DNA of 32,494 nucleotides from a bacterium (GCA_021824155.1 JAKALN010000008.1:1-32494); one strand, 5' to 3'; shown: positions 3 through 5,122, numbered from the stretch's first letter. Program-made: numbers and translations. The notes: a model not told the origin generated them from the sequence alone.

Positions 3-257
3 ATGGCTTTTGTGGGACCAAGACCCCTGCCGGTTATAGAAGCATTAAAAGTGCCAAAGAAATATCAAAAAAGATTCGAGGTTTTACCGGGTGTTACTTC
101 TCCTTGGGTTTTAAAGGGGCAGCATGCACTTAATTTCAGCAAATGGATGGAACTTGATTTAAAATATATTAAGAACAGGTCAAGAGTTTACGATATAAGA
201 ATTTCGTTGAGCACTGCCTTTTTAATACTAAAACTTATATGGAAAAAATTTACTTAA
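3..257 (+). CDS. Bacterial sugar transferase, C-terminal part (5' truncated)
   Basis: Only the last 85 or so residues are in the window; the gene begins upstream. The segment has the signature of initiating undecaprenyl-phosphate sugar phosphotransferases (PF02397 type): a VGPRPLP motif near the visible start, then a K-x-F-x-x-LPGVTSP segment and an L-x-x-D-x-x-Y-I motif. Family members load the first sugar phosphate onto the lipid carrier at the cytoplasmic membrane, starting an exopolysaccharide, capsule or O-antigen unit. The end of the frame overlaps the start of the kinase-like gene by 19 bases, so the two are probably co-transcribed and translationally coupled. The family call is firm; the sugar used cannot be told. 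Confidence 0.85.
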   Translation: MAFVGPRPLPVIEALKVPKKYQKRFEVLPGVTSPWVLKGQHALNFSKWMELDLKYIKNRSRVYDIRISLSTAFLILKLIWKKFT

Positions 258-1054
258 GAATAGGGGGATTTAATTTGCTTTTTAAAATTCATTACACGGA
301 GCAGCTTTTTCATATGGAAAAGTTCGTAAATATGCTAAAAAATGATTATGGCGGATTTATAGACAATGGTAAATTAAGAGCTGATTTCATTTTCCATATT
401 CACACGATGGGAAGATATATTCTAAAAAAAAACAAAGACAAAGATACGGATGGCAAAAATTTTGATATCAGAGCCTTTCACATAAATGAAAAAAAACGAA
501 CGTTAACCATGCATAATCCTCCCGGCAGTTCTGATTTTGAATTTATGGTAAGTACTGTTCTTGATAATTTTTTAATACCCCAAAAAAAATCTTTTATTAT
601 TCACGGTTCAGGAGTAAGTTATAAAGGCAAGGCTTATATGTTTGAAGGGAAAAGCGGCGCGGGAAAATCGACTACGGCACAGATGCTTAGGGGTCTATGC
701 GATATTTTGGCGGATGATTCTATGATAATTAGAAAAATTAATAATAAATTTCATTTTTTTCAGAACGTGCTTTATGAGAAAAACTTTAATTTTAAAAAAG
801 GAAAGGAGTCTTATTTAATTGATAAAGTTTTTTTTATAAGAAAAGCAGATAAATGTGCGCTTGTGGAAATTAAGAATAAGAATTTCATTTTGGATAAAAT
901 GTTAAAACAGGTATTTACATATCCTGGTAAAATAAAAATGCAATTTCCGGTGATTGCGGAATTTGTTAATAAAACTGATTTTTATTATTTATATGTAAGA
1001 AAGGATGGAAAAGTTTTCAAGAATTTTTTTAAGAAGGAAATTTTAAAAGCATGA
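239..1054 (+). CDS. HPr kinase/phosphorylase-like (HprK-related) protein
   Basis: This 271-residue protein has a P-loop at residues 137-145 (GKSGAGKST) preceded by a conserved IHGSG stretch (H122) and followed by an ILADD motif with D159 and D160. That is the arrangement of the HprK C-terminal kinase core. The N-terminal 110 residues do not look like the classical HprK regulatory domain, and no HPr or PTS gene is nearby, so carbon-catabolite control is unlikely. HprK-like kinases of this kind occur next to PqqD, nucleotidyltransferase and ABC transporter genes in lasso-peptide loci (PadeK of paeninodin phosphorylates the peptide) and in some polysaccharide loci. The start overlaps the sugar transferase by 19 bases, and the stop overlaps the PqqD start by 4 bases (ATGA). 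Substrate unknown. Confidence 0.8.
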   Translation: MEKIYLRIGGFNLLFKIHYTEQLFHMEKFVNMLKNDYGGFIDNGKLRADFIFHIHTMGRYILKKNKDKDTDGKNFDIRAFHINEKKRTLTMHNPPGSSDFEFMVSTVLDNFLIPQKKSFIIHGSGVSYKGKAYMFEGKSGAGKSTTAQMLRGLCDILADDSMIIRKINNKFHFFQNVLYEKNFNFKKGKESYLIDKVFFIRKADKCALVEIKNKNFILDKMLKQVFTYPGKIKMQFPVIAEFVNKTDFYYLYVRKDGKVFKNFFKKEILKA

Positions 1055-1311
1055 AATTTAGAATAAACAAAGGTTTTATTGTTCAAAAAGTAGGGAATAA
1101 ATCAACAATTTTTGATGGAGAGGAATCCGCGCTTTATACTTTTAACAAGACAGGTTCCCTTATTTTTGAAAAAATAAAGCTTGGATGGGATAAAGAGAAA
1201 ATAGTTGTATTTATATCAAAGACGTATTTAATTAAAAGGGAAACGGCAGAAAAAGATCTTGACGAATTTACCAATGGGCTTATTAAATCAAAAATAATTA
1301 AAAAGGTTTAG
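1051..1311 (+). CDS. PqqD-like peptide-binding (RRE-type) protein
   Basis: An 86-residue protein with the PqqD family outline (PF05402): an N-terminal beta hairpin, an L-Y-x-F-N-x-T-G-x-x-I-F-E-K segment (residues 28-41), a helix with K-x-x-I-V-x-F-I, and a C-terminal D-L-D-E-F helix. PqqD-like proteins bind RiPP leader peptides and present them to modifying enzymes; many also occur as orphans in kinase/nucleotidyltransferase clusters. It overlaps the kinase-like gene by 4 bases (ATGA), so the two are coupled and probably work together. Its 3' end overlaps the convergent peptidase/nucleotidyltransferase gene by 14 bases. No leader peptide for it to bind is visible in the window. Confidence 0.75.
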   Translation: MKFRINKGFIVQKVGNKSTIFDGEESALYTFNKTGSLIFEKIKLGWDKEKIVVFISKTYLIKRETAEKDLDEFTNGLIKSKIIKKV

Positions 1312-2524
1312 AGAGTTTAAGTTTCCTATAAAAAACCAAGAAGATGGAATACAAAACCTCTTTATTAAAAAAAATTAAAATTTTTCTGTAGATAGGGTAG
1401 GGAGATAAGAAAAAAATCATCTTAAACCTTCTTTTCCCGCCATCTACTCTTTCTTCCTCGTCAAAAACATCGATATCAAGAATGTTATTTTTGATGTAAT
1501 AAAGCAATCTTTTGTTTGGTTTAATTTCTTTAAGCATATTTTTGTTTATGGGAGTTTTATAATATTTTTTCAGAATAATAAAGCATGGATAAACAAAATT
1601 CTGTAAATGATATTTTTTTATAACTTCGGTTATTCTTTTATAATCGGGTGTACTTGTTTTTATTATTTTGTCTATAAAATCGTAGCGGTATGCGCCTTTA
1701 AAATTATGATGAAAAAGATGCAGGCAAAGATAAATTATGAGATCGCTTTCGGAAAGTATTTGGAAATTTTCTCCAAAAACTTTTATAATTCTTTTCCCAG
1801 TCATAAATTCCTTTGTAAGTAAATTAACTTGCTTTTGCGGATATAAAAAATTTAGTTCGCCAACTTTCGTCATTAAAAATACAATTTCAAAATGGATGTC
1901 AAAAACCACGTATAAACCATTTAGGTTTTTTGCAAAGGACATTTCAGACTCTTTATTTTTTATTTTTTTGTGTTTATTAGGTAAGCTGTCTTTGATTTTT
2001 AAATATCCAGATTTTTTTAGAAATTTCTTAATTTTTGGGAAATCTTTTGGATTAATCAGAATATCGCAGTCCGCATAAAATCTTTTGGGGTGGGTTTTTT
2101 CAAAATACAAATGCAAAGGAAGCCCCTTAAGAAATACATGTTCAATTTTATTATCTTCAAGTGTATTTTTTATTTTTACGATTTCCCCAAAATACATGCT
2201 GGATTGTAAAAGATATAGTTGGTTAGGATTAAAAATGTTTCCCTCCCTTTTGACATTTTGAACATTTCCCACAATATTTTTTGGGTAAACCTTACTATCT
2301 GTAGCTGCATTATTATCTCCTTTCGTAATCAAATATCGGTTTCCTTTATAAATAACTCTGTGGGTAAAATAACTTGAAGAATTTTTAGCGGTTATTATGT
2401 CATTTACTTTTATATTTTGAAAATTAATTTTTTTAAGATATAAAATGTCTCCATCAAGAAGCAGGGGATGCATACTATTTCCGAAGGTTTTTATGACCAT
2501 CGGTATTTTTATAATTTTTCCCAT
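1298..2524 (-). CDS. Fusion: S26 signal-peptidase-like domain + nucleotidyltransferase-family domain
   Basis: A 408-residue protein. Residues 10-95 match the S24/S26 serine peptidase fold: box B G-N-S-M-x-P with candidate nucleophile Ser17, a T-H-R-V motif with His55, and a K-G-D-N-N box at 68-72. Histidine in place of lysine is typical of the ER/SipW type (Ser-His dyad). There is no membrane anchor before the catalytic Ser, which is unusual for a signal peptidase. From about residue 100 it resembles the uncharacterised nucleotidyltransferase family (PF14907): F-L-K-G at 131-134, then D-C-D at 152-154, with a long helical C-terminus. A weak Shine-Dalgarno (AAGGA) lies 7 bases before the ATG. 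It converges on the PqqD-like gene and diverges from the ABC exporter. The domains are clear; the joint function is inferred to be peptide or lipid-linked-product maturation. Confidence 0.75.
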   Translation of the reverse strand: MGKIIKIPMVIKTFGNSMHPLLLDGDILYLKKINFQNIKVNDIITAKNSSSYFTHRVIYKGNRYLITKGDNNAATDSKVYPKNIVGNVQNVKREGNIFNPNQLYLLQSSMYFGEIVKIKNTLEDNKIEHVFLKGLPLHLYFEKTHPKRFYADCDILINPKDFPKIKKFLKKSGYLKIKDSLPNKHKKIKNKESEMSFAKNLNGLYVVFDIHFEIVFLMTKVGELNFLYPQKQVNLLTKEFMTGKRIIKVFGENFQILSESDLIIYLCLHLFHHNFKGAYRYDFIDKIIKTSTPDYKRITEVIKKYHLQNFVYPCFIILKKYYKTPINKNMLKEIKPNKRLLYYIKNNILDIDVFDEEERVDGGKRRFKMIFFLSPYPIYRKILIFFNKEVLYSIFLVFYRKLKLSKPF

Positions 2525-2580
2525 ATTTGTCCTTATATTCTAGCATAAGAATATTATGTGTAGTAAAATAGGGTTTATTA

Positions 2581-4401
2581 ATGGCAGGATTTATTAAAAA
2601 AGGGAAGATAAGTAAAGTTCTTGATGTTGCCAAAACTTCAAAAAGGCTCCTAATTTTTTTGTGGCAAATAGATAAACCTCTATTTCTTTCAAGTTTTACT
2701 GTTGCGGTAATTCCGGCATTTATACCCTTTGCAAACGCTTATATTTATAAGCTTCTTATAGATATGATTGTCGGTTCCCTGAACCGCTCGCATTTTAATT
2801 TCCAATTGCTTTATTTTTTAATGGGTTTAAGGCTTATTACATTTATAGTCCAGGAGATTTTCTTTTCACTTCAAAGCTATATAGACCTTTTAATATGGAC
2901 AAAACTTCCCGTAGCGCTTTACAGGGTAGTTCTTTTAAAGCTTTCCCAGTTGGATTTGCAGTATTTTGAAGACAGTAATTTTAAGGACACTTTGCAAAGA
3001 GTTAAAGAAAGCTATACATGGAGGCCGCTTAACATGGTTTCCGCCATTTTTTACACGTTCCAAAGTCTTACGGGACTTTTACTTGCAGTTATTATTATTT
3101 CGACTTTAAACATATATCTTGGATTTTTTATTGTTTTAATAGCAGTTCCTGTTTTTCTTAATCAGACTAAATATGCAAAAACGATTTGGGGGCTCTGGGA
3201 AGAGAATTCTCCCTACAGAAAGAAATTTTGGTATATCTCGGACTTAATTCAAAACGGACAGAGCGCAAAGGAAATGAAAATTTTTCAGACGGCAAAAAAT
3301 TTTATTACCGAACTTGACAGAATACAGAAAAAATTCGTTTCCGAAAACACAAGAGTAGGAAGAAAAAGATTTTTGACTACCCTTATTTTTGATATCGGTG
3401 GAATTGTAATATATTTTGCAATTGAATTATTTATAATCCTTTCTACAATCGCCGGAAGGATTACGGTAGGAAGTCTTACTTATTTCACTTTTGTAGTCGG
3501 TAATTTCCAGCAAGCTGTAAACGGTTTATTCCGTAATATGTCGCAAACATATAATCAAACTCTTTATGTTGAAGATATATTTAAAGTCCTTGACGCAAAA
3601 CCGGTTATTGTTTCCCCAAAATCGGCAGTCAGGGTGAATATACATAAAGCTCCAAGTATAGAATTTAAAAATGTGACTTTTGTATATCCAGGCTCAAAAA
3701 AACCGGTTCTGGAGAATTTTTCTTTAAAGATGAGCCCCGGAGAAAAAATTGCTTTTGTAGGCGAAAACGGGGCAGGAAAAACTACACTTGTAAAACTTTT
3801 ATCCCGTTTTTATGATGTAACGTCGGGAGAGATACTAATAAACGGGACAAATATTAATAAACTTGATCTAACAAGCTGGTATAAAACTTTAGGAGTGATT
3901 TTTCAGGATTTCATAAAATACGAATATACATTACGGGAAAATATATATTTTGGAAAAACGTTTGAAAAAGAAGATTTTAAAGAAATAGTAAAAGCTGCAG
4001 GAAAATCGGGAGCTGATAAAGTTGCAAAATCTTTAGAAAAGGGCTACGAACAGGTTTTAGGTAAAACATTTGAAGGGGGGACGGACATTTCGGTGGGCGA
4101 GTGGCAGAAAGTTGCACTGGCAAGGGCATTTTTTAGAAATGCCCCCGTTTTAATATTGGATGAGCCCACGGCATCGATAGACGCAAAATCGGAAAATGAA
4201 ATCTTTGAGAAAGTGGAGGCCTTAGGTAAGGATAAAACAGTTATTATTATTTCCCATAGGTTTTCAACGGTAAGAAATGCCGACAGAATTTATGTAATCG
4301 GTAAAGGTAAAATTGTCGAAGAAGGTACCCACGATAGATTAATGAAGAAAAAAGGTATATACGAGAAGCTTTTCAGTATTCAGGCTAAAAGGTACAGGTA
4401 G
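2581..4401 (+). CDS. ABC transporter, fused permease and ATPase (exporter type)
   Basis: At 606 residues this has the half-transporter layout of an exporter. The N-terminal membrane domain covers residues 30-330 with about six hydrophobic segments; the nucleotide-binding domain covers 355-606. Visible motifs are Walker A (GENGAGKTT, 394-402), Q-loop Gln442, the signature SVGEW at 504-508 in place of the usual LSGGQ, Walker B VLILDEP (523-529) and the switch His559. It would act as a homodimer in the cytoplasmic membrane and export a peptide, lipid-linked sugar or lipid. No peptidase C39 domain is present. It starts 56 bases from the divergent peptidase/nucleotidyltransferase gene; a TAAAAT box at 2564-2569 may be its -10. 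Context suggests it exports the product of the kinase/PqqD cluster. Confidence 0.9.
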   Translation: MAGFIKKGKISKVLDVAKTSKRLLIFLWQIDKPLFLSSFTVAVIPAFIPFANAYIYKLLIDMIVGSLNRSHFNFQLLYFLMGLRLITFIVQEIFFSLQSYIDLLIWTKLPVALYRVVLLKLSQLDLQYFEDSNFKDTLQRVKESYTWRPLNMVSAIFYTFQSLTGLLLAVIIISTLNIYLGFFIVLIAVPVFLNQTKYAKTIWGLWEENSPYRKKFWYISDLIQNGQSAKEMKIFQTAKNFITELDRIQKKFVSENTRVGRKRFLTTLIFDIGGIVIYFAIELFIILSTIAGRITVGSLTYFTFVVGNFQQAVNGLFRNMSQTYNQTLYVEDIFKVLDAKPVIVSPKSAVRVNIHKAPSIEFKNVTFVYPGSKKPVLENFSLKMSPGEKIAFVGENGAGKTTLVKLLSRFYDVTSGEILINGTNINKLDLTSWYKTLGVIFQDFIKYEYTLRENIYFGKTFEKEDFKEIVKAAGKSGADKVAKSLEKGYEQVLGKTFEGGTDISVGEWQKVALARAFFRNAPVLILDEPTASIDAKSENEIFEKVEALGKDKTVIIISHRFSTVRNADRIYVIGKGKIVEEGTHDRLMKKKGIYEKLFSIQAKRYR

Positions 4402-4402
4402 T

Positions 4403-5122
4403 TTATTTTCTTCGTCTCTGTAATTTCTTGTTGTTGTTCCAAAGAAGAAACATTAACAAGAGTGCGGTAAAAATCAAAAACACTAGCGCTATTGTTTTTT
4501 GCGTAGAAACCGATGGCGCGGCAGCGGGCTGAGATACTGTTGTATTGGGAGAAGGCGGATTAAGTGAAGGATCGCTTTTTTGCAGCAATTTATTGGCGGA
4601 AACAATGAATGCGGAATCTTGAATAGGAAGCGGTGTATTTACAAAAATATGGCCCGGCCATTTTTTTGCGTTTGCTACATCAATATTGCCGATGGCCCCA
4701 ATTGGATAAAAGAAAGTGTCTGTGCCTGTAAAATTGTTGTATGACTGAATAGTTATCGGATTGGAAGGAAGAACCATTTTGCTTTTACTGTTAATAAAAA
4801 CAATATAATAAGACGAAATAGGCGATTCGTCTTTCGGCAGAACTGCTTTTATTTTATCCCAGTTTCCTTGGTAGATATTAACCGTAACGTTGTCTTTAAA
4901 GCTGTTTGGGGGAACTATAACAGTTGTGAAAGGGAATATGTCAATCCTTTTTGCCTGAGGCTCTCCGTACTGTATGAAGCTTGTCGCAGCGGTTTTAGAC
5001 ATGTCAAAAAGAGGGTTATATGTAACCACATCCGGGGCGGCAGTTTGAGCAAAGGAAACTTTTGCCAAAAGCAGAAAGGCAAGTATGAGTGGTAAGCCCA
5101 GAAGCAGTTTTATTTTTTTCAT
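4403..5122 (-). CDS. Secreted protein with C-terminal membrane anchor, function unknown
   Basis: A 239-residue protein that I do not recognise. It starts with a standard signal peptide (MKKIK, then a hydrophobic core, cleavage probably after SFA near residue 25). A beta-rich extracellular region of about 150 residues follows, then a Pro/Ser/Thr/Ala-rich linker (about 180-208). It ends with a hydrophobic helix (about 211-229) and a basic tail NNNKKLQRRRK. This layout suits a surface protein anchored by its C-terminus. Its stop lies one base from the stop of the ABC exporter. It has its own promoter (-35 5157-5162, -10 5134-5139), placed back to back with the rpsB promoter. Confidence 0.8.
   Translation of the reverse strand: MKKIKLLLGLPLILAFLLLAKVSFAQTAAPDVVTYNPLFDMSKTAATSFIQYGEPQAKRIDIFPFTTVIVPPNSFKDNVTVNIYQGNWDKIKAVLPKDESPISSYYIVFINSKSKMVLPSNPITIQSYNNFTGTDTFFYPIGAIGNIDVANAKKWPGHIFVNTPLPIQDSAFIVSANKLLQKSDPSLNPPSPNTTVSQPAAAPSVSTQKTIALVFLIFTALLLMFLLWNNNKKLQRRRK

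Follow-up and report, generated by a model that had tools for sequence, protein, structure and literature searches.

What product would be made by a locus in which an HprK-like kinase, a PqqD-like protein, a peptidase joined to a nucleotidyltransferase and an ABC exporter lie together in a CPR-type genome? The window analysed here, the whole stretch of 32,494 bases, is the complete contig C8 of genome G000 (814 kb in 32 contigs) from a tiny uncultured bacterium, an assembly rated 99.5% complete. From its genes and those of its relatives, we consider it likely that positions 3-4401, on the margin of an exopolysaccharide locus, encode that half of a RiPP pathway which recognises and phosphorylates a peptide, cleaves its leader and exports it, in a manner resembling that of the linear polyphosphorylated peptides (LPP).

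Genes of the cassette

The original prediction had grouped a kinase, a PqqD protein, an S26-nucleotidyltransferase fusion and an ABC exporter beside a sugar transferase, and every one of these parts was found where it had been placed:

3-257, + strand: sugar-1-phosphate transferase (polyprenyl-phosphate), C-terminal fragment truncated at the contig start (PF02397)
239-1054, + strand: HprK-like kinase, LppK/PadeK-like, with catalytic H122, K143, D159 and D160 (TIGR00679; AF2 model)
1051-1311, + strand: PqqD-type discrete RiPP recognition element (RRE), LppB/lasso B1-like (PF05402; TfuB1/TbiB1 profile matches)
1298-2524, - strand: fused leader peptidase (S26, archaeal/SipW type) and nucleotidyltransferase (TIGR02228, PF14907, AF2 model)
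2246-2503, - strand: S26 signal-peptidase-like domain of the fused protein, residues 8-93, Ser17-His55-Asp76 (TIGR02228; SEC11 matches)
1550-2227, - strand: NTP_transf_5 domain of the fused protein, about residues 100-325, Asp152/Asp154/Asp209 (PF14907; LnuA-like fold)
2581-4401, + strand: MsbA-like ABC exporter, LppD-like (TIGR02203)
4403-5122, - strand: 239-aa protein without family match, adjoining the exporter

The kinase and pqqD genes share an ATGA overlap, the pqqD and peptidase-transferase genes converge with a tail-to-tail overlap of 14 bp, and the exporter gene is transcribed divergently from the latter. The 84 residues encoded at 3-257 match the C-terminal part of bacterial sugar transferases (PF02397, E = 7.5e-15, model positions 102-178), and a full-length sugar transferase occupies the equivalent place in G001, G060 and other genomes. 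Since the kinase matched its family model weakly (TIGR00679, E = 4e-5, below the cut-off), its structure was predicted; the AlphaFold2 model (pLDDT 90) resembles structures of PEPCK and HPr kinase/phosphatase, and H122, K143, D159 and D160 are kept in 85-97% of 34 homologues. At another locus, an intact kinase gene is adjoined by a kinase-like copy that lacks the P-loop (L014:12281-12997) and has the look of a pseudokinase partner. The PqqD protein matches PF05402 over the cut-off, and when its family profile was compared with PDB chains, the lasso B1 proteins TfuB1 (4e-7) and TbiB1 (4.9e-6) were better matches than the other PqqD chains.

In the fused protein, the S26 part scored 57.7 bits against TIGR02228 (cut-off 51.85) and the nucleotidyltransferase part matched PF14907 (NTP_transf_5) with E = 2.2e-23. 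A model of the whole chain (pLDDT 90) resembles signal peptidases (human) or LexA together with nucleotidyltransferases of the LnuA type. Both domains lie in one chain across 34 homologues, among which S17 is kept in 94%, H55 in 97% and D76 in 97%, while Asp152, Asp154 and Asp209 of the transferase part are invariant (34/34). The exporter matches TIGR02203 (MsbA) with E = 8.8e-80, below the equivalog cut-off. The 239-aa protein that follows it starts like a signal peptide and has, at its C-terminus, a membrane helix that ends in basic residues; it is kept beside the exporter in G001.

Resemblance to LPP and lasso-peptide clusters

LPP, described in 2026 with the lpp cluster of Paenibacillus alginolyticus as restricted to Bacillota, are made in Paenibacillus in three steps: the YxxP leader is bound by a discrete RRE, core Ser3 receives several phosphates from an HprK-like kinase, and the leader is removed by a serine peptidase of the SipW type with the aid of the RRE. 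The catalytic residues of LppS are S29/H68/D93, and the set, which sits within capsule loci, also includes an NTP transferase of unresolved role and an MsbA-like pump (PMC13381572). In the window we found an HprK-like kinase (by fold and H-K-D-D residues), a discrete RRE gene (1051-1311), a SpI leader peptidase of the SipW/archaeal type with a Ser-His-Asp triad (TIGR02228; S17/H55/D76), an NTP transferase (the PF14907 domain, fused to the peptidase) and an MsbA-like exporter within the cluster. The likeness extends to the YxxP leader of the relatives' precursors, the capsular or exopolysaccharide setting and the fact that no lasso cyclase is needed. Unlike LPP clusters, this cassette carries its peptidase and NTP transferase as one protein and belongs to a CPR host; in addition, the relatives have a membrane-anchored partner gene, some of their loci contain YcaO/SagB or radical SAM proteins, and some of their precursors end in Hint or S74 domains. 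The relatives' precursors share only YxxPx[IVLM] and are without the VLxHQxIxFETxxS extension of the LPP leader. Because this longer motif is absent from them, we do not file the cassette as a member of the LPP family, although that family is a better match than the lasso peptides.

A cluster for a phosphorylated or nucleotidylated lasso peptide of the paeninodin or pseudomycoidin type (PadeK, PadeB1, PsmK, PsmN), with its cyclase and B2 protease upstream, had been suggested by the His-Lys-Asp-Asp HprK-like kinase, B1-type PqqD, nucleotidyltransferase and ABC exporter, which are common to such clusters (PMC9266682); the nearest solved relatives of the PqqD protein are likewise lasso B1 proteins. 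In contrast, no B2-type cysteine protease (Transglut_core3) was found in G000, G001, G037 or G045 and no macrolactam cyclase (Asn_synthase match) in G000, G001, G037 or G060, and a serine leader peptidase of the S26 family is present instead. Two Asn_synthase genes inspected near the cassettes of other genomes start with MCGIAG, which we take to be the start of glutamine-dependent asparagine synthetases. A lasso cluster was rejected on these grounds and seems to us highly improbable. The broader part of the original prediction, a tailoring and export set for some RiPP, stands through the conserved precursors with a shared leader described below, and a putative set for RiPP tailoring, processing and export in a CPR-type genome is supported by the sequences.

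HprK-like and PqqD proteins are also paired in the HPr-rel-A and SynChlorMet cassettes (NCBIfam TIGR04352/04353 and TIGR04249/04248). The matches of our kinase and PqqD protein to these models are weak and all fall far below cut-off, and we know of no such cassette that includes an S26 leader peptidase-nucleotidyltransferase fusion. Graspetides are known in CPR (PMC8939145), and YcaO clusters have been found there by antiSMASH (PMC12153355). A search covering part of the literature yielded no paper on the present cassette in CPR and none on HprK with PqqD and exopolysaccharide.

The cassette in related genomes

A scan for the fused protein in one genome per species (84,980 species) gave 15 full relatives, those with names being Levy-, Roizman- or Gottesmanbacteria or unclassified Patescibacteria. 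When about 0.7 Mb around the fused-protein genes of 34 genomes was read for the same gene order, a PqqD gene was found within about 10 kb of the fused-protein gene in 30 of 34 and an HprK-like gene near it in 28-29. Given this recurrence in 34 genomes, the grouping is not due to chance. The exporter is less constant: it is kept beside the cassette in G001, G060 and CandRoiz1, adjoins it in only 4 of 34 genomes, and most relatives have none within about 10 kb. A recurrent neighbour is a membrane-anchored partner of 170-200 aa with one N-terminal membrane helix. Another membrane-anchored protein, of 270-300 aa and without a Pfam match (L006:7158-7997 and homologues), is encoded near the cassette in most genomes.

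YcaO lies near the cassette in 8 of 34 genomes, with a SagB dehydrogenase alongside in most; G086, one of the eight, encodes a 704-aa YcaO protein and no SagB, and may on our reading also have radical-SAM-like proteins. As in YcaO/SagB TOMMs, Cys/Ser-rich cores are encoded along with SagD-like YcaO and SagB in G001, G037, G045 and other genomes; unlike in those systems, an LPP-type kinase and a leader peptidase are added, the recognition element is a separate PqqD protein, and YcaO/SagB are absent from the assembly of the window. G037 has a second YcaO-SagB pair (L007:1160-3470), upstream of which lies a Pro-rich 71-aa ORF without the common leader.

Precursor peptides

Precursors were sought as small ORFs with a K/R-rich leader containing YxxPx[I/V/L/M], a pattern that leaves out the leader/core junction. 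This gave 27 small candidate precursor genes in 21 of the 34 surveyed genomes; the leader motif found none in the other 13, in some of them owing to contig ends there. ORFs with such a leader numbered 24 in the 225 kb lying within 1 kb of core genes, compared to 3 in the remaining 522 kb, and of these three, two also lie within RiPP loci. Most precursor ORFs abut the gene for the 170-200-aa partner and a kinase or peptidase gene.

In about 20 of the 34 genomes a sugar transferase is encoded within some 10 kb of the fused-protein gene, and the region upstream of the cassette in G001 and G060 is filled with genes for glycosyltransferases and polymerases. The cassette could on this account be an accessory module of exopolysaccharide synthesis that involves no peptide, its kinase and nucleotidyltransferase acting on a glycan or lipid carrier. 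We regard this as improbable, since conserved precursor genes abut the cassette genes, the PqqD protein is B1-like and the leader motif fits, and LPP clusters too sit in capsule loci (PMC13381572). The original prediction would have fallen had polysaccharide genes alone been found upstream and in all homologous loci, with no conserved small peptide gene; such peptide genes, with their common leader, do recur next to the cassettes of relatives.

Alignment of the 27 precursors (21 genomes) placed an h-x-Ala junction between leader and core in 25, compared to a mean of 14.6 and a maximum of 23 in 2,000 per-sequence shuffles. As the junction formed no part of the search pattern, it is independent evidence for a signal-peptidase-like cut. 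An h-x-Ala junction also resembles the ordinary signal-peptidase rule, as it would if the S26 domain were the cell's housekeeping signal peptidase and its neighbours coincidental. This is hard to reconcile with a fused protein that has no transmembrane helix by hydropathy, that carries the nucleotidyltransferase in all 34 homologues and that is absent from most genomes of the class to which G000 belongs (it was found in 31 of 373), and we give such a role very little credence. Several precursors read Ala-Gln-Ser at the junction, and the LPP leader is cut before Ala-Gln-Ser (PMC13381572).

The cores are variable and often Cys-rich, ranging from a few residues to Cys-rich tails, and some precursors are without Ser at the position phosphorylated in LPP. 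Very short cores of 4-6 residues after h-x-Ala occur at L134, L135, L032, L020 and L119 (GVVS, GEIS, ATAI, ATWV and IGVSGG). In two putative precursors (L022:3459-4037 and L121:6166-6723), the common leader and a tiny core (e.g. QSGCGG) are followed, from the next Cys, by a Hint/intein-like domain (Pfam PT-HINT, E = 5e-10 and 2e-9, respectively), self-cleavage of which could free a core that is activated at its C-terminus. A further Hint-like precursor may lie at L076:2014-2628; Pfam gave no support for a Hint domain there, and Hint calls rest on Pfam because a custom Hint profile, with whole precursors in its second-round training, also matches ordinary leaders. At L117:14795-15268, a precursor-like leader is fused directly to a Peptidase_S74 chaperone domain (Pfam E = 2e-15), a domain that cleaves itself. 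In the part of the literature searched, no paper joined a Hint domain to a RiPP precursor.

The region upstream of the window

Motif scans of the window for a precursor yielded only chance-like ORFs distant from the cassette, and a DNA pattern search of the whole G000 assembly gave 12 matches compared to 11 for a reversed control, with no plausible gene among them. A leader profile that recovered the known precursors in G001 and G133 reached only E = 0.146 in G000. Nor did any part of this assembly yield a YcaO, a second kinase or a carbamoyltransferase, and the substrate of the G000 cassette is accordingly inferred.

In the same-genus sister genome G001, two precursors lie about 18-22 kb upstream of the sugar transferase, in a stretch that also encodes a SagD-like YcaO (198 bits, cut-off 219), a SagB over the cut-off, one intact and one P-loop-less kinase copy, and two partner proteins; glycan genes also lie ahead of the sugar transferase there. 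In G000, contig C20 has the left flank of the corresponding stretch (a vWA-like gene, then UppS) beginning right at its end, and the window opens with the right flank. By comparison with G001, about 27 kb are absent between the two contig ends, and this gap spans the syntenic stretch that carries YcaO in G001. A related genome, G060, is likewise broken in this region, with a partner gene and a kinase-like gene interrupted.

The missing RiPP genes of G000 thus appear best explained by an assembly gap. Alternatively, the cassette could be a remnant, YcaO, SagB and the precursors being truly lost and the remaining proteins serving another substrate or decaying. The absence of all those genes from so complete an assembly would fit such a loss, while the catalytic residues are all intact and the contig ends flank exactly the RiPP region, and the breaks in G060 fall within genes of that region; we hold a remnant to be unlikely. 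The expectation that missing parts lie upstream is probably right for a precursor, as the position of the G001 precursors suggests, and is unsupported for the cyclase and B2 protease, neither of which was found in the four genomes searched for each.

Proposed pathway

The LPP-like pathway that we favour is a prediction of chemistry from the observed gene content and synteny, the folds with their conserved catalytic residues, and the leader and junction motifs. In it, the PqqD protein would bind a small precursor by its YxxPx[I/V] leader and the HprK-like kinase would phosphorylate a core Ser (or Thr) one or more times. With its substrate presented by PqqD, the S26 domain would then cut the leader at h-x-Ala in the cytoplasm. 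The hexoses on the phosphorylated Ser of pseudomycoidin require the nucleotidyltransferase PsmN (PMC9266682), and by this analogy the fused nucleotidyltransferase domain may modify the phosphorylated core with a nucleotide or a sugar-type group. Export of the product would fall to the ABC protein. In some relatives, YcaO and SagB would convert core Cys, Ser or Thr to azoles, as they probably do in G000 too, encoded within the gap.

More tentatively, the cassettes might define a hybrid RiPP class of CPR bacteria, in which common-leader precursors pass through a constant LPP-like module (kinase, RRE and fused peptidase-nucleotidyltransferase) and interchangeable maturases (YcaO/SagB or radical SAM), some with Hint or S74 followers, and the phosphorylated core is finally joined to a glycan or lipid-linked sugar from the adjacent transferase and displayed on the surface. 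This is a possibility to which we give less weight than to its alternatives taken together.

The CPR version lies far from the LPP clusters of Bacillota, and the welding of the NTP transferase to the leader peptidase ties two steps together and offers a way to test the role of the LPP-type NTP transferase. Very variable cores are as expected of molecules for contact with hosts or rivals, and genome-reduced CPR bacteria would retain an elaborate peptide-modifying locus among their surface-glycan genes.
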